Shown here: one piece after another, positions 1-9,201 of the stretch
Layout: the number at the start of each line of letters is the position of its first letter
Position numbering within the stretch: the first letter of the stretch is position 1
Origin: an uncultured Bacteroidota bacterium
Lineage (GTDB): Bacteria > Bacteroidota > Bacteroidia > Chitinophagales > Chitinophagaceae
Assembly (NCBI GenBank): GCA_903853805.1
Contig: CAINUN010000062.1
Coordinates: 1 to 64,000 of the forward strand
Length of the DNA stretch: 64,000 nt
Direction of reading: 5' to 3'
Notes under the pieces: model-generated
The model's database searches: none
The model's input: the letters and a program-made list of their open reading frames with translations, nothing else
What the model was told of the DNA's origin: nothing
Made by a program: the position numbers and the translations under genes

Positions 1-360
1 AACAATCCAAACCTTAGATGCATAGAAGTAGATAGTGCTGCATGGAGTACTTTTTATTGGACTTATTGGTCTAATAGCATAGATTCTACAGCATCTTTCA
101 GTGAAAACTGCAACTACAGTAGCGGAACAGGAAATAATACAATAGAACAAAGTAAGGCGCTTCAGATGTACCCTAATCCAACAACAGGTATTATTAACCT
201 TACTGCTAATTCAAACATGGAATTAACAGATATAACAGGTAAAGTTTTAATGCAAAAACAAAATGCTAAACAATTAGATATTTCTACGTTACAAGTAGGA
301 ATTTATTTGCTGCGAACTGGAGAAAATTTGAATCACACTTTTAAAGCAATAAAAGAGTAA
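1..360 (+). CDS. C-terminal part of a T9SS-exported cell-surface protein (5' truncated by window edge)
   Basis: The reading frame is open from base 1 and ends with TAA at 358-360. The first ~40 residues (NNPNLRCIEVD..., then a Ser/Thr/Trp-rich stretch and FSENC) resemble the last leucine-rich-type repeat of Bacteroidota surface proteins. After a short Ser/Asn linker comes a type A sorting domain of about 65 residues starting MYPNPTTGIINL and ending in a Lys/Glu-rich tail. In this domain family the signal directs passage through the type IX secretion system and is then removed at the cell surface. The ATG at 166 lies inside the domain and is not the start; the real start is upstream of the window. 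Substrate or ligand is unknown. Confidence 0.85.
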   Translation, partial: NNPNLRCIEVDSAAWSTFYWTYWSNSIDSTASFSENCNYSSGTGNNTIEQSKALQMYPNPTTGIINLTANSNMELTDITGKVLMQKQNAKQLDISTLQVGIYLLRTGENLNHTFKAIKE

Positions 361-599
361 GTGAAGTTTTAAGCCTTTGCTATCGCAAGTTTACTGTCGA
401 GCCTTTGTGAGTTGCAAATTGGTGCTTTAAATATAGTTAGGCACAAATTGGATATCCACTTTTCCTACGCTTCAGACTTTCAGCAATTATAAAGTGAATA
501 AAAAATTGCAAGATGCTGATACGGAAGTGGAGAAGTAAATTTTGTCTTGTTCTGTTTTAAATAGTTTGTTAAGTTAAAGAGAATAATCGTTGATTTTTG
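361..599. other. Intergenic stretch, no gene recognised
   Basis: Between the sorting-domain gene and the convergent HupE-like gene. A short open piece near 510-537 reads KLQDADTEVEK and may be a gene remnant, but nothing else supports it. No terminator with a clear T-run and no array was seen. Confidence 0.4.
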
Positions 600-1166
600 C
601 TACAACAAAATTCTTTCTACTGTCCAATATAAAGCCACACAAGCTATTAAACTGGATAATGGATAAACAATTTTGGTGTAGTAATAATCTTTTTTGCCGA
701 ACCATTTTGCAATTAAAAAATATGCGGCAACTATCACCGTGATTTGCGCCAGTTCAACGCCTACATTAAATGAAAGTAAAGAAGCCAAAAAATGTTCGGG
801 TGGCAAACCCACGTCCTTTAAGGCATTGGCGAAACCCATTCCATGAATTAGTCCAAAAATGAAAATGATGAGCAAACGCCATGTATTGACTTTATGGTGA
901 AATAAATTTTCAAGAGAAGCAACCAAAATCGAAATAGCAATAATTGGTTCGATGAATGTAGGATTGGGCAAAATATATCCAGCTGCTGTTAAACCAAGTG
1001 TTACAGAATGTGCCAAGGTAAAAACTGAACACTGAATAAGTACTGATTTCAAATTTGAATTGAGAAAGAAAATACTCAAAATGAAAAGAATGTGGTCGAA
1101 GCCAAGCGGAATAACATGAGCAAATCCCATTTGTAAATATTGTTTTACCACTTCAATCATTTCCAT
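600..1166 (-). CDS. HupE/UreJ family membrane protein
   Basis: 188 residues, almost entirely hydrophobic, with about six membrane segments. The hallmarks of the HupE/UreJ family are present: an N-terminal GFDHILFILSIFF segment with the conserved Asp-His, a FTLAHSVTLGL helix, and a central HGMGFA motif. The family is associated with nickel or cobalt handling for hydrogenase and urease, but most Bacteroidota copies have no known substrate and no such enzyme is nearby. It starts 4 nt after the stop of the YhcG-like remnant on the same strand, so any transcript would read through both. Family assignment is firm, the transported species is not. Confidence 0.8.
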   Translation of the reverse strand: MEMIEVVKQYLQMGFAHVIPLGFDHILFILSIFFLNSNLKSVLIQCSVFTLAHSVTLGLTAAGYILPNPTFIEPIIAISILVASLENLFHHKVNTWRLLIIFIFGLIHGMGFANALKDVGLPPEHFLASLLSFNVGVELAQITVIVAAYFLIAKWFGKKDYYYTKIVYPLSSLIACVALYWTVERILL

Positions 1167-1170
1167 TCCA

Positions 1171-1509
1171 TTATTGTTTCACAAATCTAGCAATGCTTGA
1201 AAAGCCTTTGGTGTCAGTTATTTTGATGAAGTCATCGATGGTTTGTTGGAGGTAAAATAGGGCTTCGTCCACTGATTTAGCCTTGTCTAACAATACTACA
1301 TGATGTCCCCAGGGAACGCTGCTTATGTTCAAGTTTAATCCAACAACTTGTTGGATTGAGTTTTCTTTATTCAATGAAACAGGTTGCTGCGCTGAATTTA
1401 TATCGGTTGGAATTTCATTCAGTCCAACATCTTGTTGGACTGAAGCAGTTGTATAAAATTGATAAAATTTACGGATGTAAAACAGGTTAGACCGAGAGAA
1501 ACCCTTCAT
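1171..1509 (-). pseudogene. Fragment of a YhcG/DUF1016-type PDDEXK nuclease
   Basis: 112 codons. Residues 1-20 (MKGFSRSNLFYIRKFYQFY) and the later PWGHHVVLLDKAKSVDEALFY segment match the conserved N-terminal part of YhcG/DUF1016 proteins. Between them is a low-complexity insert with three versions of a QQ(D/P/V)VGLN-like motif. The C-terminal nuclease domain is missing: after the LQQTID segment the frame ends in about 20 unrelated residues. Its ATG overlaps the stop of the UvrD fragment (AAATGA), so two unrelated broken genes have been joined. Probably non-functional; the family link rests on two short motifs. Confidence 0.5.
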
Positions 1510-1745
1510 TTCAGGAAATTCTGCTGAATTTTTGAACGAACACGAAACTTTAATTCTTCCGCTGCTTTTTCTGTAAAAGTGAATGCTACAATTTGTTCGG
1601 GCTTTGCTACTTTCTTGTAAATCATGTAGGCGATTCTCTCCGAAACAAATTCAGTTTTACCAGAACCTGCGCAAGCTATAATTTGAAGATTACCCTTCAG
1701 TAATTCAGGTTTTGATTCAAATAAGTCGGAATTAAAAAAAAGCAT
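1506..1745 (-). pseudogene. N-terminal remnant of a UvrD/REP-type helicase
   Basis: 79 codons covering only the start of a superfamily 1 helicase: the Walker A motif ACAGSGKT at residues 25-32, then IAYMIYKK and the motif Ia-type AFTFTEKAAEELKFRV. Intact UvrD-like proteins run to roughly 650 residues or more; everything after motif Ia is absent. The frame stops where the YhcG-like fragment begins. This looks like a deletion scar within accessory DNA. Confidence 0.75.
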
Positions 1746-1777
1746 AGGAATAGTATAGAGGTTAAATCTACAAAAGC

Positions 1778-1837
1778 TTTGGAAAATTACATAACAAAGA
1801 GTAGAACTTTATTGTTTTGGAAAATTGAATTACAAAG
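1778..1837. repeat. Imperfect 22-nt direct repeat pair
   Basis: Copies at 1778-1799 and 1816-1837, offset 38 nt, both begin TTTGGAAAATT and end ACAAAG, 19 of 22 positions identical. They lie in the 296-nt gap between the UvrD remnant and the polymerase gene. No function is evident; a protein binding site pair or a duplication scar are both possible. Confidence 0.45.
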
Positions 1838-1954
1838 TATAAAAAAGCATTGAAAATTCTAAATAAACAAACCTAAACCACTATTGATTTGATTGCCAAT
1901 GAATGAAATCTCATTGTGCTATCTCTAGGAAATCGCACTCCACAATCACTTTTA

Positions 1955-2036
1955 CAAAGAGGTCTTTACAATAATGATCTACACTTCTTTACTGATTTAG
2001 ATCGTCGCTCGCTGGTGCTGCGCTCCTTATTGTAAA
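1955..2036. other. Nested dyad structure downstream of the polymerase gene
   Basis: A 10-bp perfect inverted repeat, TTTACAATAA at 1965-1974 and TTATTGTAAA at 2027-2036, encloses a second hairpin with GATCTA (1976-1981) and TAGATC (1998-2003). The remaining inner segment is GC-rich (about 2004-2026). It is preceded by CAAAGAGGT at 1955-1963, a word that recurs at both arms of the dyad 3646-3701 on the other side of the polymerase gene. It begins 6 nt after the gene's stop. There is no T-run on the gene's strand, so it is not an ordinary terminator; an origin, recombination site or structured RNA end is possible. Confidence 0.6.
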
Positions 2037-2041
2037 TGCCA

Positions 2042-3616
2042 TCACTTCTTTCTAACAAAGCACTTAAAGTCAATACTGTTGAAATACTCTTCCATGATAA
2101 TCTTAATTGCATCAGCTTCGCTTTCTTTTACTCTTAAAGCATCATGGATTGTAAATACCCTATAACCCTTTGCTATCAATAGCATCAATAGTCCATCAAT
2201 CATTATTTCTGCTTCTTTCTTTTGCAGCATATTGGAGAAGGCTTTGTAGCTGTTGTCATGTTTGTAGCTATCAACCCAGTTCATGTAAATGGGAAATTGG
2301 TTTCTAATTTGGTCATACTCTTCATTATGCTTCACCTTATCAAATGCTACTCTAAACATCAATTCTTTGCCTTGTCCTTTTGGTAAATTCAATGCAGTTT
2401 CTATTAGGCTGTATAAACCACCGTTTTGAGCATGATAAATGAAATGGTCATCAATAGTTGGATTAAGATGTGCTGCTATGGCAAATTGAGCATTTGCAAT
2501 GTCTAATTCAACAAGTTTTTCACCATCAAAAAGTAAGTAATCAAACAGTTCCTTTTTTAGTCCAGTTAGGTTATGGTCTAATCTATTATTGGTTTCATTT
2601 CTGCTACAATAAAATAGTTTGTTGTTGATGTTAAACACTGATTGCGCATAGATTATTTCCAGTTGTAGTTGCTTCTGTTCAATAAAGTTTTCAGGTGTAT
2701 CAATATAGCATTTGTCCTTGAACTGGATTAGTTGAAGATTGTTATCAGTAGCCAGTTTTAAAGCATTATTGAGTGTATACCTATACTTGGTTTTGTTGAA
2801 GGTTAAATAGACAAACTCGTCTGTAATTTGGTGGTCAATTTTGATAATGTTGGCTTGTATTTGGGATAGTTCTTTAATGGCTGTATCAACATCATTATTG
2901 AAATTGAGTTGATCTAAATTTTGGTAGTAATAATTCTGTAAAAATGCTGTCTGGGAACTATTGTAAAAACAAGGCTCTTGGTGAGGGAACAAATATGATA
3001 TAGTCGATGTTGTAGAAGATTTTAGTTGAGTTGATTGTGTAAATGTTTGGTTAGTCCTTGAATCTTGTCCTTGAATAGTGTAATAGAATTGATGATCAAA
3101 ATGAGGGAACAAATATGATATAGTCGATGTTGGAAAAGAATTGTTAGTTGAATTGGTTGCTGGTTTAACCTTTAATTTTTGTCCTTGAAAAGTGTAATGA
3201 TATTGAGGATCAAAATGAGGACACAAAGGTGATATAGTAGATGTTGTAGAAGTGGTTAGTTGAGTTGATTGTGTAAATGTTTGATTGATACTTGAATAAT
3301 TAGATCTTGAAAAGAATTTACTATTGAATTTATAGCCTTTACCAATGCCTTTCTTAACGCTGTATTTCTCATCACAAATTAGAATGCCATTAGCCACTAG
3401 AATGTCTTTAATTTTTAGATCCCGATTGCTAGGCAAGATTGTTATGAAGTATTTTTTTGACAGGCTTAAATAGTCCGAATATAATTGGTTGTTTACCCTA
3501 TAAAGGTTGAAGATGCTGGCACATAAATTTTGTGCCTTTTGTTTTTGTAGCGGTGTTTTCCATTTGATGGTGTTTACTGCATTATAAATTGATACCAGAA
3601 TTGATTGATTAGTCAT
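2042..3616 (-). CDS. Putative replicative protein with family-A DNA polymerase-like palm motifs
   Basis: 524 residues. The C-terminal ~160 residues carry, in order, motifs resembling the palm and fingers of family A polymerases. There is a motif A-like LVELDIANAQFAIAAH with D372, N375, Q377 and H383. A motif B-like helix follows with K417, R422 and K427, then an NQFPIYMNWV segment comparable to the helix after motif B in PolA. A QKKEAEIMIDGLL helix and a motif C-like TIHDAL with H491-D492 complete the set. There is no exonuclease domain. Residues ~1-100 look like a DNA-binding N terminus. Residues ~110-215 hold a Ser/Thr/Asn-rich linker with three copies of a TSTISYLFPH-type motif. There is no YxDD box, so it is not a reverse transcriptase. 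It is probably the replication protein of the integrated element, judging from the integrase and flanking dyads. The polymerase assignment is motif reading only. Confidence 0.6.
   Translation of the reverse strand: MTNQSILVSIYNAVNTIKWKTPLQKQKAQNLCASIFNLYRVNNQLYSDYLSLSKKYFITILPSNRDLKIKDILVANGILICDEKYSVKKGIGKGYKFNSKFFSRSNYSSINQTFTQSTQLTTSTTSTISPLCPHFDPQYHYTFQGQKLKVKPATNSTNNSFPTSTISYLFPHFDHQFYYTIQGQDSRTNQTFTQSTQLKSSTTSTISYLFPHQEPCFYNSSQTAFLQNYYYQNLDQLNFNNDVDTAIKELSQIQANIIKIDHQITDEFVYLTFNKTKYRYTLNNALKLATDNNLQLIQFKDKCYIDTPENFIEQKQLQLEIIYAQSVFNINNKLFYCSRNETNNRLDHNLTGLKKELFDYLLFDGEKLVELDIANAQFAIAAHLNPTIDDHFIYHAQNGGLYSLIETALNLPKGQGKELMFRVAFDKVKHNEEYDQIRNQFPIYMNWVDSYKHDNSYKAFSNMLQKKEAEIMIDGLLMLLIAKGYRVFTIHDALRVKESEADAIKIIMEEYFNSIDFKCFVRKK
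2983..3300 (-). repeat. In-gene tandem repeats of about 38-40 codons
   Basis: Three related copies start at about 2983, 3103 and 3217 (120- and 114-nt steps, both multiples of three). Each contains the word GATATAGT followed by CGATGTT or AGATGTT, preceded by GAGG(G/A)(A/C)ACAAA. In protein they read TSTIS(Y/P)L(F/C)PH plus a spacer with QTFTQSTQL and YYT(I/F)QGQ. The outer copies keep the QTFTQSTQL part while the middle copy has lost it. They form a linker between the N-terminal part and the polymerase-like part. Confidence 0.8.
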
Positions 3617-3645
3617 GTAGTGGTTTTATTTTTTGGGTGGTTTTC

Positions 3646-3701
3646 GTCAAAGAGGTAGACGGGGTAATTATTCCCGTCCTAAACCACCTAACCTCTTTGA
3701 C
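3646..3701. repeat. Nested inverted repeat 28 nt upstream of the polymerase gene
   Basis: Outer arms GTCAAAGAGGT (3646-3656) and ACCTCTTTGAC (3691-3701) are a perfect 11-bp match. Inner arms GACGGG (3658-3663) and CCCGTC (3673-3678) form a second stem with a short AT loop. GGTGG at about 3636-3640 and CCACC at 3684-3688 offer an alternative pairing. Both outer arms contain CAAAGAGGT or its complement, also found at 1955-1963. Confidence 0.75.
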
Positions 3702-3782
3702 TTTATATTCATAAACTATTAAAAAGTTTAAAAGAACTTGTACTTTTTTAAAAATCACAGCCAGCTACTTATTCTCACCACC

Positions 3783-3812
3783 GCTCTGTGTCTCCAGGCA
3801 CGAACCAAGAGC
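3783..3812. repeat. Short two-step hairpin
   Basis: GCTCT (3783-3787) pairs with AGAGC (3808-3812), and GTG (3788-3790) pairs with CAC (3799-3801) directly inside it. It is weak by itself but lies between two strong dyads in the same spacer. Confidence 0.4.
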
Positions 3813-3871
3813 CCAATAGAAAACAATGTGGTTGATAAAACGGCACTTAAGAAAAATTGAAAACTCAATTA

Positions 3872-3947
3872 GGGTTGATCTGGTCGTTCCTAATTGTTTG
3901 GGAATACAAATACACTAACCAAAGTTTTTCGTTGACCAGATCAACCC
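3872..3947. repeat. 14-bp perfect inverted repeat with 48-nt spacer
   Basis: Arms GGGTTGATCTGGTC (3872-3885) and GACCAGATCAACCC (3934-3947) match at every position. Inside, TTTGG (about 3897-3901) can pair with CCAAA (about 3919-3923). No transposase lies between them, so it is not a miniature transposon with a gene. A cruciform, a dimeric protein binding site or a plasmid-type origin would fit. Confidence 0.8.
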
Positions 3948-3996
3948 GAAACCTGTTTAATGAATGTTTAAAAACCCAGCATCTATGGCACGGGTA

Positions 3997-4224
3997 CTAT
4001 TTGATTTGCGCCACCATTATTTTCAATTCGCAAATCTTTATTTGCATTTCTATCTTTTTCTTATCCGATGGGCTGAGGGTTGAGCTATTCGATAATTTGG
4101 CTCTGTAATCGCTAATCTTTTGCTGTAGCGAATTGATTTTGTCAGCATCAATGGGTTTGTGCAGGGTAACTATTGATTCCTTAAATAGCTTGAAAAATTC
4201 ATTGTAGGTCATTTGATATTTCAT
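3997..4224 (-). CDS. Small helical protein of unknown function
   Basis: 75 residues, MKYQMTYNEFF at the start, then a long Lys/Glu/Gln-rich amphipathic stretch predicted by eye to be mostly helix and possibly coiled coil (HKPIDADKINSLQQKISDY to the C terminus). It lies on the same strand as the winged-helix gene upstream (99 nt) and the polymerase gene downstream (380 nt), so it may be an element gene co-transcribed with both. The plus-strand frame over the same bases is less protein-like. No family recognised. Confidence 0.55.
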   Translation of the reverse strand: MKYQMTYNEFFKLFKESIVTLHKPIDADKINSLQQKISDYRAKLSNSSTLSPSDKKKIEMQIKICELKIMVAQIK

Positions 4225-4323
4225 TGTTCCTTTTTATTTTTTTAACCCAATTTGGATTACTGTATATATAAAAATGAAACACCAGAAATTCTACTGATAA
4301 ATTATTGGGGTCACAGTGTTTCT

Positions 4324-5085
4324 TTATGATTCTTTTTTAACCTCAAAATCTTGGAAGAATTCTAGAAATGGTTTGAATATTTGTAGGTAGTCAATGTTAA
4401 GAATATCCACTGATCTTTTATCAGGTTTAATTTCCGTAATTATTTTATTACTCCTTAGGTCAGATAAATGATTTGATAAAGTGCTTTTAGGCATAGGTGT
4501 ATTATATTTCTTCTTATAATCATTACGGATTTTTGTATCTGTTTTGTAAGTTAAAACTGGTGCAAAAAGAAATAGTTCAATTATTCGCCTAATAGTTTCA
4601 TTATTAAGGCATTCAAAAACACCCAGTAAAATTTCAATGTTTTCAAAAAGCAATAAAAAAGATTCTCCTTCACTTTCAACTGTAAGCGAATTCAAATTGC
4701 TTTGAGTTTGTGTTGTTTCCAAACCAATATTGTTGACGCTATCAATGAAGCTCGTAACGATGTCCCTGTTCATGGAATACTTATATTCCATGGGTTTTAT
4801 AATGTTCACAAAATTTATCTCACTTAATTTTTTTAAGACATCTCTTCCTTCTGTTCTTTCAACTAGAACTTTTTCTTTTCTTAATTTATTCTTATGCTCT
4901 TCAGTAAAAGGTGGTGTTAAAGGGAAAAGGTTTTTAGCAGTTTGATTAGGTGCTTTGGTTAATCTTCGCAAGGTTTCTTGCGCTTTTGGGTCATTCAATA
5001 ATCTTAAAACATAAACTACATTTTTAATTACCTCACCATTGCTTTCATTAATCAAGTATTCTATATTTTTTTGGGCTGTTTCCAT
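4324..5085 (-). CDS. Winged-helix DNA-binding protein of the element (putative regulator)
   Basis: 253 residues. The C-terminal third contains a helix-turn-helix with wing, MPKSTLSNHLSDLRSNKIITE then a basic turn KPDKRS, as in ArsR-like winged helices. An N-terminal helical part (residues ~1-75) and a possible second winged helix (~70-115) precede it. There is no enzymatic motif. The gene reads away from the ParB-methyltransferase gene, with a 486-nt divergent spacer holding a palindrome at 5143-5160 that could be its operator. TAATTTTG at 5097-5090 matches a -7 box only 5 nt before the ATG, so the message may be leaderless. The regulatory role is inferred. Confidence 0.55.
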   Translation of the reverse strand: METAQKNIEYLINESNGEVIKNVVYVLRLLNDPKAQETLRRLTKAPNQTAKNLFPLTPPFTEEHKNKLRKEKVLVERTEGRDVLKKLSEINFVNIIKPMEYKYSMNRDIVTSFIDSVNNIGLETTQTQSNLNSLTVESEGESFLLLFENIEILLGVFECLNNETIRRIIELFLFAPVLTYKTDTKIRNDYKKKYNTPMPKSTLSNHLSDLRSNKIITEIKPDKRSVDILNIDYLQIFKPFLEFFQDFEVKKES

Positions 5086-5142
5086 GGTGCAAAATTAACC
5101 CATTAGTTGACCAAACATTTATTGAAAGAAAAGAAATTATAT

Positions 5143-5160
5143 GGCCAATTTCAGTTGGCC
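5143..5160. promoter_or_regulatory. Palindrome, candidate operator in the divergent spacer
   Basis: GGCCAA (5143-5148) and TTGGCC (5155-5160) form a perfect 6-bp dyad with a 6-nt centre, 58 bp upstream of the winged-helix gene. A related half-site GTTGACCAAAC lies at about 5106-5116. Its position fits autoregulation but nothing here proves binding. Confidence 0.35.
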
Positions 5161-5245
5161 GAATATGCTTGGATATATATAACAGAGAAGTTATATGCAT
5201 GAACTATATATTAAATATAATTAGTATTTAATTGGGCTATTCTTT

Positions 5246-5443
5246 TTACTTTTGCCTAAAGTTTTTCCAAATGCTCAATTTTTTAGAAATGTAGAAAACT
5301 TGAATTAATCCAACACCCACTGTAAGGTGTGTGATACCTAAACAAGATTTAATATGAATCACATTAAATAACTCATTAAATATGAAGTCTATAAAATACA
5401 GGAAGATACAAATACGTGCTCCTTGATTTAGTTTAATAATCAA
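5246..5443 (-). CDS. Possible small membrane protein, weak call
   Basis: 65 codons starting at an ATG in the 486-nt spacer between the winged-helix gene and the ParB-methyltransferase gene. Two hydrophobic stretches (ICIFLYFIDFIF and GITHLTVGVGLIQVFYI) would suit a small membrane protein. No ribosome binding site or family is visible and the region is AT-rich, so it may equally be chance. The rest of the spacer shows only the palindrome at 5143-5160. Confidence 0.25.
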   Translation of the reverse strand: MIIKLNQGARICIFLYFIDFIFNELFNVIHIKSCLGITHLTVGVGLIQVFYISKKLSIWKNFRQK

Positions 5444-5571
5444 TAAAATAATTAATTATAAAACCAAACTCAAATGCCTAACATTAAAATAGAAAAAATA
5501 ACTATTCGTCCACCGTGACAAATCCACACAGTTACAACAAAAATTATTTTTTAACTTAATAAGTTTCAATT

Positions 5572-7203
5572 TTGAAAAAACATTATAAAAAAGAACGCAA
5601 GGTCGTTCAGATTAAAGACCTGAAAAGGCATCCATTTGCAGCCGACATCTATCAAATTAGTGATATTGAAAAACTGGCTGAAAACATCAACCGCAACGGA
5701 ATAATACATGGCCGCCCAGCATTAGATTCTGATAACAATATATTAGTAGGTTGCAGGGTAATTGAGGCTTGTAGAGCGTTAGGCTGAAAAGAAATAGCGG
5801 TTGATGTTTACACAGAAATTACTGAAGAAGAGGCCGAAGAAATAATTATTTCCAGTAATCTCCAACGTGTAAAGACCGTTTATGAAACTACCAAAGAAGC
5901 CGAGTACTATCTCTCAAAACTTCCTAAGCAACAAGGGAAGCGTAAGGACATTCATGTTCCTGAAACTGACCAAATTCCAGAATGGGCTATTGGAAAAGAA
6001 CGCTACCAAGCTGTTGCTGACAGAATGGGCTCAAACATATCTGGACCAACCCTACGTAAACTGTTAGATGTAAAAGAGTTCGAAACAACTCAGCCAAAGG
6101 CAAATCTAAATCTATTAGATAAAATCAACTCAGGCGATTTATCTATTGATAGAGCTAAAAAGATTGTTTTGAACTATTACGAGCAGCAAGAAGAGGTTAA
6201 ACAAATTAAGCCGATAGCACCTGTAGAAAATGAATTTGATGGCGAGCGAATGTGGAAACTATATCATAGTTCCAGTCTATCAATGAGAGAGTTGTTAGAT
6301 GGCATCATTCAGGTTTGCATCACCAGCGTTCCTTATTTTTCAGTTAGGAAATACGGAAAAGGAACACAGTTGATTCCTGAACTTGGACTAGAAACTTGTT
6401 ACAAGGATTATTTGAAAAACATGATTCCATTTCTTAAGGAAGTATTTCGAGTGCTTAGTATTAGAGGCAGTTTTTTCTTGAACATTGGCGAAACTTATTC
6501 TAAACACACCAACAATAATATCATGCTTCGTTTAGTATTAGCAGCTTGTGATGAAGTAGGGTTTCATTTAGTAAATTCAATTGTGTGGCATAAGACCAAT
6601 AGTTTACCACAAACTACTGACAAACGCCTCCAACCGAGCTACGAGATGATTTACCATCTAGTCAAGGATGTGGATCAGTATGATTACTATCCATTAAAAT
6701 ATTTGGATAAAAAACAAAAATGCAAAATAATTGCAATTGACAGGCCAAATAAAAAGGGTGGACTGGATATTGGTGAGCCATCTTTGAGTAAGCCCTATAA
6801 AAAGTTTAAGGATTTTATTGATGCGCAATACTTTGAGGATATAATTATTTCTAGTTCTGCTGGTTCAGATAGTTCTGCTTTGCGTAAGTTGGATCCTAAT
6901 ATTAAACATTTTGCTATATTTCCTAGCAATATATGTGTACTGCCAATACTTACAACTTCTAAACCCGGCCAAATAGTGCTTGATTGTTTCAGTGGATCGG
7001 GAACTACAATTGACACAGCTATTATGCTTGGCCGTAAAGGAATCGGATATGAAACTGAAGAGCGTTTTGTTGAATTAACTCATAAACGAATGACTGAGGC
7101 CGAAAAAAGATGTAACGAAAAGGATATGAATATCATTCAAGAATATGTTGAATCAAATAGTATTAATGAAAACAACCAAAGTATTACAAATACTGCGGCC
7201 TAA
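5572..7203 (+). pseudogene. ParB-like / DNA methyltransferase fusion interrupted by one in-frame TGA
   Basis: The frame opens with TTG at 5572 (stop codons close upstream leave no better start) and is continuous to TAA at 7201 except for TGA at 5785-5787, codon 72 of 543. Residues 1-~110 are a ParB N-terminal domain (VVQIKDLKRHPFA, then LVGCRVIEACRALG, the TGA, and KEIAVDVY). Relatives have Trp at the position of the TGA. A helix-turn-helix-like part follows (~120-170). Then comes a permuted beta-class methyltransferase with a motif IV-like TSVPYF at 251-256, where TSPPY or DPPY is usual, and motif I CFSGSGTT at ~472-479. Family fusions modify DNA in mobile elements. The single TGA suggests a recent nonsense mutation; the ATG at 6025 could still give a methyltransferase-only product. 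Confidence 0.8.
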
Positions 7204-7264
7204 TTAAAGAACTAACTACAACTATCTTTTATGAGTTTTTCAGGTTATCACATTCGACCCAGAG

Positions 7265-7360
7265 AGCAGCATTGACAGTTATGTAGTCAACTGACTGCTG
7301 GATATTTTCCAGGATTTTTATAGTGTTAAATATCATTATTTATTGGTAGCAAAGCCTACC
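7265..7360. repeat. Two short dyads upstream of the excisionase gene
   Basis: First dyad: AGCAG (7265-7269) with CTGCT (7295-7299) and TTGAC (7272-7276) with GTCAA (7286-7290). Second: GGTAG (7345-7349) with CTACC (7356-7360). They occupy the 194-nt gap before the Xis-Int genes. They could be accessory integrase or excisionase binding sites or mRNA hairpins; neither has a T-run. Confidence 0.35.
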
Positions 7361-7397
7361 GATAAGACCTCTTATTATTAATTAAATATTATTTTTT

Positions 7398-7703
7398 ATG
7401 AACATTAGTTCAGCCTCCATATTCTCCGATGACTTTCACAATTGGCTTAAAAGTCTAATGAGAGAAATTATTTCGGAATCATTGCAGGAATTCCGTGGTC
7501 AGCAGGAAAATCCTTACTGTAGCCAAATTGCAGACACAAGTGTTACAAAAGTTTACAAACGCAACGAAGTTGCTACAATTTTAAAACGAACTCCAACATG
7601 GGTTAGCACCCAGATTCGAAACAAAAAGTTGCAGGCAACTTTTATTAATGGTCAATATTTAATAAGCGAAAAAGCAATTAAAAAATTTATTGAAAAAAAC
7701 TAG
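7398..7703 (+). CDS. Excisionase-type helix-turn-helix protein
   Basis: 101 residues. The second half is a MerR-like winged helix of the excisionase/HTH_17 type: VYKRNEVATILKRTPTWVS, then QIRNKKLQATFINGQYLIS and a C-terminal helix KAIKKFIEKN. The N-terminal 50 residues are acidic and helical. It ends 2 nt before the integrase gene, as expected for an Xis-Int pair. In such pairs the protein bends att DNA and directs the integrase towards excision; it could also be a simple regulator. Family firm, directionality role inferred. Confidence 0.7.
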   Translation: MNISSASIFSDDFHNWLKSLMREIISESLQEFRGQQENPYCSQIADTSVTKVYKRNEVATILKRTPTWVSTQIRNKKLQATFINGQYLISEKAIKKFIEKN

Positions 7704-7705
7704 TC

Positions 7706-9025
7706 ATGCTACGAATACATTGGTTATTACGAAACCCACGGAAAAAAGGTAAAACAGCAATATATTTTACCGTTAGATACGATGGGCAGGTTGCCCAGAT
7801 TTTCCCTAAAGAGAGTATTGAAACTTCTTTGTGGAATAATAAAGATAATAGCAATAGGCCTAAGCCTATTGCTATTAATAAACCCCTTGAAATGCGCTTG
7901 ATAGAATTTGAAGCGCTCATTAGAAAGGTGTACAAAGAACTAGCAGAGAAAACTATTGGAATTGTTTCACCAAAATTGTTGAAGTCATCTGTATATGCAG
8001 CAATGTGTCCTAATAAAGTTGCCAATTCGGAAGTAGTGCTTAAAAAATTAACTGTTGTAGAGTTCTTTGAAAAGTTTATCAAGGATAGTGAAACTGGAGT
8101 CCGTTTATCTCCAAATGAAACTAAGATCAAAGACAATAGTATCAAACCTTATTACAGTACCATGAAACACTTTATGGAGTTTCAAAAGCAAAATCGCAAG
8201 GTTTATTTATTTGATGATTTTAACCAAGAATTGATTACAAATTTCAATCAGTATTTAATTGCGTTTAAAGTTGATGAGCTTGGAAAAACACTTAGCAGAA
8301 ATGCTGTTGGAAAATACATGCAGGTCTTAAAAACCATGTTGCGATACGGACAACAATTGAAGCTGATTAGCCCTACTTTATTGTTAGAGGTAGTATTAAG
8401 AGTTAGACGAGAAAAAAGTGATAATATTTTTCTTGACGAAAATGATTTGGCCGTAATGGCAACTAATCATTACGAGGGTATTACTGATGTTGTTCGTTCT
8501 TTATTTTTAATTTCAGCTTATACGGGTATGCGTTGGGGTGACCTTGAAAGGCTTACCCAAAACCAATTTGAAAAACAGTTCCAAAAGTATATTGAACAAG
8601 TTCAAGGCAAGACTAATGGAATAGTAACACTTCCTATTCACCCTAACATTAAGAAGATTTACGAAAAGTATGGAAAAACATTACCCAAGTGTCCTTGTAA
8701 TCAGGTGTTCAATAAGCAATTGAAAATTATTGCTAAAACAATTCCAAGTTTATCTCAGCCTTTTACTAAAAGAACAACCCGATCTAACGAGAAAAAAACT
8801 GATCGAAAAGAGCGTTGGAATTTCGTTAGCGCACATACGGCGAGAAGGAGCTTCTGTAGTAATCTATACCTACAAGGAATAGATACTGAAGTAATCATGA
8901 GTTTGAGCGGGCACTCCACCGAGCGTTCTTTCCGACTATATATTGCTGAGGCAGTAAGAAGAAAACAAGCTGATTATATTAACAAGCGTTTTTATGAAAA
9001 CAATGATGATGAATCAGCTGCATAG
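7706..9025 (+). CDS. Tyrosine recombinase / phage-type integrase
   Basis: 439 residues, typical of Bacteroidota integrative element integrases: an N-terminal arm-type domain (RIHWLLRNPRKKGK, YFTVRYDG), a SAM-like core-binding domain around 115-235, and a catalytic domain from ~240. Catalytic residues can be placed: R276 in TGMRWGDL, H377 and R380 in HTARRSF, H403 in SGHSTERSF and nucleophile Y412 in RLYIAEAV. No residue is missing, so the enzyme should be active. It ends 83 bp from the 3' end of tRNA-Phe and points at it, the usual layout when the tRNA 3' end is the attachment site. Confidence 0.9.
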   Translation: MLRIHWLLRNPRKKGKTAIYFTVRYDGQVAQIFPKESIETSLWNNKDNSNRPKPIAINKPLEMRLIEFEALIRKVYKELAEKTIGIVSPKLLKSSVYAAMCPNKVANSEVVLKKLTVVEFFEKFIKDSETGVRLSPNETKIKDNSIKPYYSTMKHFMEFQKQNRKVYLFDDFNQELITNFNQYLIAFKVDELGKTLSRNAVGKYMQVLKTMLRYGQQLKLISPTLLLEVVLRVRREKSDNIFLDENDLAVMATNHYEGITDVVRSLFLISAYTGMRWGDLERLTQNQFEKQFQKYIEQVQGKTNGIVTLPIHPNIKKIYEKYGKTLPKCPCNQVFNKQLKIIAKTIPSLSQPFTKRTTRSNEKKTDRKERWNFVSAHTARRSFCSNLYLQGIDTEVIMSLSGHSTERSFRLYIAEAVRRKQADYINKRFYENNDDESAA

Positions 9026-9072
9026 TAAACTACCGCCACCTACAAAAGGCCACAAGTTGTAAAAACAAAAAA

Positions 9073-9099
9073 TAAAACCCGCTACTGGAGCGGGTTTTA
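9073..9099. terminator. Bidirectional terminator between integrase and tRNA-Phe
   Basis: AAAACCCGCT (9074-9083) and AGCGGGTTTT (9089-9098) form a 10-bp stem with loop ACTGG, extended by T9073-A9099. A run of A on one side and T on the other lets it stop both the integrase transcript and the tRNA transcript from the opposite strand. Confidence 0.85.
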
Positions 9100-9108
9100 T
9101 TTTCTTAG

Positions 9109-9184
9109 TGGTGGTGTGGGCCGGGATCGAACCGGCGACACAAGGATTTTCAGTCCTTTGCTCTACCGACTGAGCTACCGCACC
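9109..9184 (-). tRNA. tRNA-Phe (anticodon GAA)
   Basis: 76 nt including an encoded CCA (complement at 9109-9111). Anticodon stem AAGGA/TCCTT with loop CTGAAAA gives GAA, and T stem GCCGG/CCGGC is perfect. The acceptor stem GGTGCGG against CCACACC has one mismatch, C5 against A68, on the 3' side nearest the integrase. That is what would be left if an element had supplied the tRNA 3' end on integration. This gene is the probable attachment site. Confidence 0.95.
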
Positions 9185-9201
9185 TACCCTTTTTGGGATT
9201 G

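Follow-up and report, generated by a model that had tools for sequence, protein, structure and literature searches.

A putative initiator-polymerase gene on a tRNA-linked integrative element of Chitinophagaceae follows a conserved leader best read as a two-partner RNA pseudoknot

In T4-type phages, the products of gene 32 and of gene 43 (the DNA polymerase) each repress translation of their own mRNA through a leader structure, a pseudoknot for gp32, situated 67 nt before the start codon, and an operator hairpin for gp43, which is not known to be a pseudoknot (PMC3014915). In another system, translation of repZ of ColIb-P9 needs a pseudoknot upstream of the ribosome-binding site, and an antisense RNA blocks the formation of that pseudoknot (PMC8383071). 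In a third, antisense copy control is described for the staphylococcal RepA_N plasmids examined, and the Rep protein of pSK41 is reported to have an N-terminal domain of 120 residues, with boxes midway along rep and a linker for which the origin DNA codes (PMC5703833). Here, we describe a locus that recalls each of these systems in part. It lies in a 64-kb stretch of DNA (hereafter, the window) at the start of contig CAINUN010000062.1 (G000:C62) in the 3.5-Mb genome of an uncultured Bacteroidota bacterium of the Chitinophagaceae, and it comprises a gene of 524 codons (2042-3616, minus strand), whose 524-aa product is predicted by its fold to be a family A DNA polymerase, on an integrase island next to a tRNA gene. 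A first-pass annotation had placed this 524-residue gene correctly, had called it a polymerase gene bracketed by four dyads and had suggested either an integrated replicon with its replicase beside its origin or a polymerase working on a structured RNA. Among the four dyads, the one directly before the start codon is the most important, and its best-supported reading is an RNA pseudoknot.

On the sense strand (the minus strand of the window), this leader is made of a stem, P1 (5' strand GTCAAAGAGG, 3692-3701; 3' strand CCTCTTTGAC, 3646-3655), of a hairpin inserted into it, P2 (5' strand, 3673-3678; 3' strand, 3658-3663), and of a strand, P3 (GGTGGTT, 3682-3688), that is complementary to two downstream direct repeats, r1 (AACCACC, 3636-3642) and r2 (AACCACT, 3619-3625), the latter ending 2 nt before the ATG. 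Since P1 and P3 cross, they would together make an H-type pseudoknot, and the P3-r1 and P3-r2 helices are mutually exclusive. The annotated dyad (3646-3701), folded as 3614-3702, has an 11-bp outer stem and an inner hairpin (-26.8 kcal/mol as RNA) and goes beyond dinucleotide shuffles both as RNA (z -3.35, 2/200 as good) and as DNA (z -3.58, 2/200), while the whole leader region (3614-3996) reaches z -2.92 with 0/100 shuffles as good. Searches with Rfam returned only three tRNAs at the gathering score in the window, nothing at E 1 or less between 1900 and 4300, and a single sub-threshold match (E 0.48) in 4 homologue loci. A 20-nt match (85%) of the leader end (3622-3641) to a tRNA flank (9093-9112) was set aside as probably due to chance, since the leader of one homologue (L071) retains the pairing without that sequence.

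The T4 leaders resemble this one in being structures on the mRNA of a replication protein, and they set a precedent in which such a protein acts on the leader of its own mRNA; the locus described here differs in that the knot extends to the start codon and offers P3 a choice of two partners, and an action of the protein on its leader would be assumed by analogy. The repZ leader is likewise a pseudoknot switch before the replication initiator gene of a mobile element, a likeness drawn from its description and not from its sequence, but an antisense RNA operates there, whereas two alternative partner repeats are present here. There is a single partner site in repZ.

The same leader stands directly before the ATG in six close homologues (L032, L034, L050, L071, L072 and L073), which are 48-65% identical in their best tblastn segments, L034 and L072 being nearly alike; the named records in which close homologues occur are metagenome-assembled genomes of uncultured Bacteroidetes and Chitinophagaceae, and L107-L111 are the same DNA as L034, L072, L032, L071 and L033 and were counted once. 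In this close group, P1 is AAGAGG/CCTCTT (extended in the window and in L073), P2 is a G+C-rich hairpin of variable sequence, P3 sits between the 5' arm of P1 and P2, and r1 and r2 follow P1. P3 and its repeats change together, from GGTGGTT/AACCACC to TGTGGTT/AACCACA and TGTAGTT/AACTACA. Since MAFFT misplaces the repeats in some rows, the P3 pairs were counted from anchored segments in 7 distinct leaders (the window, L032, L034, L050, L071, L073 and the viral L121): at position 1, the pair with r1 is G-C in 5 leaders and T-A in 2, and the pair with r2 is G-C in 3, G-T in 2 and T-A in 2; at position 4, both repeats give G-C in 5 leaders and A-T in 2; position 2 shows one G-T with r1. Compensatory changes are thus found at two positions in both P3 helices. 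RNAalifold, which is blind to P3, was run on 7 rows (6 distinct), and 5 of the 13 pairs of P1 and P2 had changed on both sides yet were kept. Ordinary folding, from which knots are barred, chooses P1 for the window, the P3-r1 pairing for L032 and the P3-r2 pairing for both L034 and L071, showing that both P3 pairings are energetically open. The case for pairing in the leader is thus one of covariation, and a conserved and covarying structure does stand before the gene, its best-supported form being an RNA pseudoknot that includes the two repeats omitted by the first-pass annotation.

The leader might instead work as DNA, as a promoter operator or an origin bound by the winged helix of the protein (see below), in the way that iteron plasmids autoregulate rep transcription, with one inverted and two direct copies of a site plus a cruciform. 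The complementary segments can equally be read as one site repeated in inverted and in direct orientation, a winged helix is predicted for the protein, the element is a likely replicon, and a site coevolving with its binding protein would alter in all of its copies together. When helices were set by hand in 12 leaders, 301 of 308 pairs on the sense strand were Watson-Crick, 6 were G.U, 0 were C.A and 1 was another mismatch, which speaks against DNA; since this count omits position 7 of L073 (C opposite A with both repeats, a G-U on the opposite strand), P2 of L034 and P3-r1 of L119, the argument for RNA over DNA that it provides is modest. In two distant leaders (L112 and L118), P3 is on the opposite side of P2 (3' instead of 5') and still within P1, r2 lies at -1 to 6 nt from the start codon in the 12 leaders (nearness being a search criterion), and a separate 22-nt motif is a better candidate for a DNA site. 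Both the closeness of r2 to the start codon and the switch of P3 from one side to the other favour RNA on sequence grounds, and we consider a DNA role unlikely.

A similar layout made of unrelated letters was found before the homologues in L112 (Flavobacterium sp. MC2016-06), in L118, L119 and L127, and in L018 (genome G084). L118 and L119 are IMG/VR contigs with terminase genes, L118 also having a portal gene, and L127 is a further viral contig, in which a 9-bp P1 encloses a separate hairpin with P3 in its loop. When viral contigs were scanned with a DNA pattern drawn from the close leaders, one contig matched, L121, where the leader precedes a very distant homologue of 392 aa with the family's invariant residues; a looser pattern matched three places in two of 394 family genomes, all before this polymerase gene (2 for the reversed control pattern). 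A looser pattern also matched 14 viral contigs, among which only L121 had the two repeats and a homologue behind them. The L121 leader (183-245) is almost that of the close group although its polymerase ranks with the most distant ones, which may point to an exchange of leader and gene as modules.

To score such leaders, we used a finder that looks for a strand followed downstream by two complements to it, the second of them no more than 12 nt from the ATG. In control genes, it reached a length of 6 or more in 23/657 and of 7 or more in 7/657; with a crossing P1 added, scores of at least 20 were found in 3/643 and of at least 17 in 27/643, in a control set that partly includes likely distant homologues (two rows of 327 aa, L077 and L079, each scoring 17). 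Among 67 upstream regions (the window and homologues, some of them near-copies), 10 scored at least 20 (the window, L032, L034, L050, L071, L072, L073, L121, L018 and L126) and 4 more scored 17-18 (L118, L119, L127 and L136). L126 (score 23) was not counted as a member, its score stemming from low-complexity GTTTTGTTT, nor was L136 (score 17), the repeats of which are unlike: upstream of 5479 in L136, the segment that follows the hairpin could have two partners further down that differ from each other, in place of two copies of one. Shuffled sequences were as good in 0/200 cases for the window, L032, L034, L050, L071, L073 and L018, and in 3/200 for L119 and L121. Since the finder was devised once the window and the close group were known, the independent weight lies with the distant members and the pattern scans. 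That the leader is a product of chance, or a plain hairpin before an ordinary gene, is hard to credit: A-rich spacers favour short matches, and control genes do reach a score of 17, but the covariation and the recurrence of the leader stand against it.

A tree of 60 proteins contains one supported clade (SH-aLRT, the Shimodaira-Hasegawa-like approximate likelihood ratio test, 99, from a quick search) with 8 leader-bearing rows plus L033 and L124; L112 was scored as leader-bearing by eye (score 15), and the region upstream of the L033 gene lies beyond the contig. L121, L127 and L018 are outside this clade, two of them on long branches. Homologues lacking dyads and an absence of covariation, the signs that would have told against the first-pass reading, are not what the close clade shows: the leader covaries, and 8 of 9 testable rows have it (counting L112, by eye and with a weak score).

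We then considered the protein itself. Its 524 residues divide into a winged helix (about 1-110), a disordered linker (about 118-217) and a family A polymerase fold (about 218-524). The whole-protein model, built from 36 sequences, has a predicted local distance difference test score (pLDDT) of 81.8, with residues 123-184 and 193-217 under 50. Compared with family A polymerases, it aligns over 261 residues to 5dkt (VIA Z 15.4, root-mean-square deviation 3.9; Foldseek E 1.4e-4), mainly from about residue 214 onward, and the best 50 VIA rows are all family A polymerases by title. D372, Q377, K417, E468 and D492 are invariant in the 36 sequences, and we take D372 and D492 to be the catalytic Asp of motifs A and C and K417 the Lys of the fingers helix. 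Like Klenow, Taq, apPol and T7 polymerases, the protein thus has a predicted palm and fingers and the conserved order Asp, Lys, Asp; it differs from them in having no Pfam match, no exonuclease domain in the model, a polymerase part of only about 310 residues and an N-terminal domain of its own. The term polymerase used by the first-pass annotation is therefore backed by fold and motifs and not by any library family: the window protein matched no Pfam family at E 1 or less, no NCBIfam model and no PHROGs entry below E 0.12, a sequence search of the PDB gave a best E of 0.1 for an unrelated entry, and 0/28 homologues matched a polymerase-named model in Pfam, NCBIfam or PHROGs, 7/28 matching the unnamed phrog_4756.

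A predicted family A DNA polymerase, and not a reverse transcriptase, also bears on the idea that the polymerase takes the leader, a non-coding RNA, as its template or primer, in the manner of retrons and other defence systems built on a reverse transcriptase, with the direct repeats serving for template jumping. A dedicated structured RNA does lie directly upstream of a polymerase, and defence-like cargo is found in three related elements, but this RNA abuts the start codon with r2 within the initiation region, the same unit occurs on phage contigs, and the initiator-like domain points to replication, so that we find this idea very improbable.

The N-terminal winged-helix domain (3263-3616, minus strand; model pLDDT 80.6) is nearest to plasmid replication initiators. 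In VIA its top three matches are 5kbj, 4pql and 4pt7 (Z 7.4-7.1), with CAP, TFIIE and Fur tied at 7.0, and in Foldseek ranks 1-3 are 4pql, 4pql and 5kbj at E 0.06-0.15; the initiator structures are titled as Rep-DNA complex, DNA binding protein or initiator, and we take 5kbj, 4pql, 4pt7 and 4pta to be RepA_N proteins. Since Z 7.4 is tied with other winged helices and the Foldseek E is 0.06, the predicted initiator likeness is only a lead.

Relatives of the protein were not found in plasmids, and its phage matches were 3, weak and in uncultured records of 635-735 kb (LR756501, LR756503 and LR745206). When the single protein was the query, neither genome contigs nor viral contigs gave a match, and homologues appeared when an alignment was the query. 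Distant polymerase homologues also occur in viral loci L129-L154, and the leader is absent from those of them that were scanned (a scan that did not extend to LR756501, LR756503 and LR745206). In BFVD, the best matches of the whole model are phage proteins of about 400 aa, A0A516L5C2 (without a name) and A0A8D9FR19 ("Putative DNA polymerase I"), which probably belong to the same compact superfamily.

The DNA of the low-pLDDT linker holds all three copies of a 22-nt motif (a candidate iteron) present in the window gene, at 2983-3004, 3103-3124 (31 nt identical with the first copy) and 3217-3238 (4 mismatches), all read on the plus strand. Copies with at most 5 mismatches also lie inside the gene of L032, L033, L034, L072 and L073, and others lie outside the gene, apparently between genes, at C27:25303 in the window's own genome, once in L033 and once in L071. 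With at most 3 mismatches, 12 genomes gave 11 places, namely 7 in the polymerase gene, the 3 copies outside the gene and 1 at G412:C22 (2 for the reversed pattern); a close polymerase gene is present in each of the 5 genomes with matches, and among the other 7, 6 gave no match to the protein and G419 carries the gene in truncated form. The outside copies at L104:12303-12324 and L071:706-727 lie near DUF932 genes in both elements, a neighbourhood that is perhaps a common far-end module. On sequence evidence, the best candidate for an origin is this motif repeated in the gene's own linker, and not a flanking dyad; the integrated replicon suggested by the first-pass annotation is supported in part, as an integrase element with its own polymerase, and not as a replicase with its origin in the adjoining dyads. 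The arrangement is like that reported for RepA_N pSK41, with an N-terminal domain of about 120 aa (origin-binding in pSK41) and linker DNA with boxes (candidates here), and differs from it in that there is no sequence match, the C-terminal part is a polymerase and the structural likeness is weak (Z 7.4). We do not claim membership in RepA_N, in an Rfam family or among retrons.

The polymerase gene lies in an island in which it is followed, towards the tRNA, by a small ORF (open reading frame) of 75 aa upstream of the leader (3997-4224, minus strand; counterparts in L032, L034 and L050), an ORF at 4324-5085, a fusion of a ParB-N-like part with an N6-N4 DNA methyltransferase (5572-7203, plus strand), an HTH_17 excisionase-like gene (7398-7703, plus strand), a tyrosine integrase (7706-9025, plus strand; Phage_integrase 5.2e-13), as annotated at first pass, and tRNA-Phe (9109-9184, minus strand). 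The gene first called ParB-type has a ParB-like N-terminal part (PHROG 3.9e-4) but is a methyltransferase fusion (N6_N4_Mtase 4.3e-38) with an in-frame TGA (5785-5787); its orthologue in L072 is free of this TGA, and there too ParB_N stays below the curated cut-off (1.4e-4). The integrase adjoins the 3' end of the tRNA, as in a tRNA-targeted integrase island. DNA similarity to congeners starts at 9100-9111 in 5 of 6 cases, the sixth contig (G005) stopping within the tRNA, which makes tRNA-Phe the likely integration end. A BLAST of 9041-9200 found no direct tRNA match of at least 12 bp further left in the window, so that no second attachment site was found; since the contig starts at base 1 of the window, a border further left would escape detection. 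The congener stretches beyond tRNA-Phe (n=6, G005 having no sequence past the tRNA) have no DNA similarity to 1-9099, and thus no clean empty site can be read from them. L050, L071 and L072 share the order integrase, HTH gene and polymerase, the last two also with ParB/methyltransferase. Close to the integrase there is a tRNA-Lys gene in L050 and a pair of tRNA-Val genes in L071; in L032 and L034, no integrase was seen within the stretch examined.

Altogether, the three-way P3/r1/r2 complementarity with its covariation, the motif copies that lie both within the gene and beyond it, and the integrase next to the tRNA, all read from the sequences, lead us to propose that this gene encodes the initiator-polymerase replicase of a tRNA-linked integrative element, translated under a bistable pseudoknot leader, a reading to which we give a probability of roughly 0.57. 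The element would be copied by its own initiator-polymerase acting at repeats within its own gene. P3, held in the P1 loop beside P2, would pair with r1 to give a compact pseudoknot that leaves the start region free, or with r2, which would cover the start region. Competition between the two pairings would set translation, probably as feedback, the state being chosen by the polymerase or by an antisense RNA, and the replicase would consequently be made in small, regulated amounts. From this arrangement we infer a switch with a ligand and a direction of control, as well as an origin function and replication.

The leader might also be the target of an antisense RNA, the pseudoknot permitting translation and the antisense RNA blocking it. 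For this, repZ of ColIb-P9 (PMC8383071) and the antisense copy control of the staphylococcal RepA_N plasmids examined (PMC5703833) would be precedents. A small ORF also lies upstream in several elements, but it ends 169-380 nt before the gene. Two partner sites here versus one in repZ likewise speak against this possibility, which seems rather improbable to us. The small ORFs of this type have a similar C-terminal half in several elements.

Several points weigh against the proposed initiator-polymerase replicase under a bistable leader. In the leader, the P1 core AAGAGG/CCTCTT is invariant in the close group, the RNAalifold covariation term is just -0.36 with rows partly misaligned, the 7 leaders have one P3 mismatch (C-A at position 7 of L073), the helices behind the pair count were set by hand, and the need for two repeats is a guess. 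The finder was designed after the window had been seen, and since it demands a repeat near the ATG, the nearness of r2 is partly selected; shuffles were as good in 8/200 cases for L127, 11/200 for L118 and 22/200 for L112, each being weak alone. L124, though within the supported clade, has no leader, and the leader is also missing from most of the wider superfamily examined, most of the related viral loci scanned included. The winged-helix match is below Z 8, level with other winged helices. At up to 5 mismatches, the 22-nt motif is absent from the polymerase gene of L071, and direct repeats of at least 15 nt lie ahead of the polymerase motifs in 8/25 homologues and are missing in 17/25. Finally, the far end of the element was not found, and L072 has an integrase and no tRNA within the 15.9 kb examined.

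The other three dyads fared unequally. The perfect 14-bp dyad (3872-3947, folded as 3868-3950) is well beyond shuffles (z -5.47 as RNA and -4.16 as DNA, 0/200 as good in both); a pattern with exact arms, searched for in 10 genomes, matched just the genome of the window, once at this place and once in a rearranged second copy on C27, and one arm is also found downstream of the gene in L032. The nested dyad after the stop (1965-2036, folded as 1955-2041) is present but weak (RNA z -2.04, 7/200 as good; DNA z -2.80, 2/200), and among seven loci compared by BLAST its region matched only the second copy in the same genome, L035 (88% over 1886-2345). The dyad at 3783-3812 (folded as 3780-3815) was rejected as a structure, being at chance level (RNA z +0.19, 110/200; DNA z +0.12, 104/200).

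In that second copy (L035:12941-14156, contig C27), a different homologue of 327 aa stands in place of the polymerase, with a 51-bp unit repeated 3.7 times in tandem before it, and the original gene is reduced to its last part, which is perhaps a replicon swap with an iteron-type origin. Beyond the polymerase gene, L071 has a type IIG restriction enzyme, L033 one of type I and L035 Druantia-, Dpd- and DISARM-like helicases, and on the same side the window has fragments of a UvrD helicase and of a DUF1016 gene. A GIY-YIG-like gene lies next to the polymerase in L119 (1787-2281; PHROG homing-endonuclease 2e-6) and, by eye only, in L033 and L116; Pfam gave no match for those of L119 and L033. Fragments of the 3' part of tRNA-Phe, 44-51 bp long, were seen at or near contig ends of congeners (G005:C113:1-51 and G003:C85:6643-6686), which suggests other elements using the same site.

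We tentatively consider a broader view, on which we would not yet rely: a single gene would be a whole replicon, with an origin-binding domain, origin repeats in its linker DNA and a polymerase, all within one reading frame, its output being under a bistable pseudoknot whose single strand would choose between two nearly identical partners, one next to the ribosome site and one at it, and it would serve integrase islands with defence-like cargo in Bacteroidota as well as some phages, with RNA and protein both outside the family libraries searched. Judged by titles and abstract openings, the literature offered no paper on this leader or this polymerase, and, among the libraries searched, Pfam, NCBIfam, PHROGs and Rfam name neither of them. 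The leader could be another, differently built class with a built-in two-partner switch, and the protein would be a compact initiator-polymerase, which bears on how integrative islands copy themselves and makes it a possible tool enzyme.

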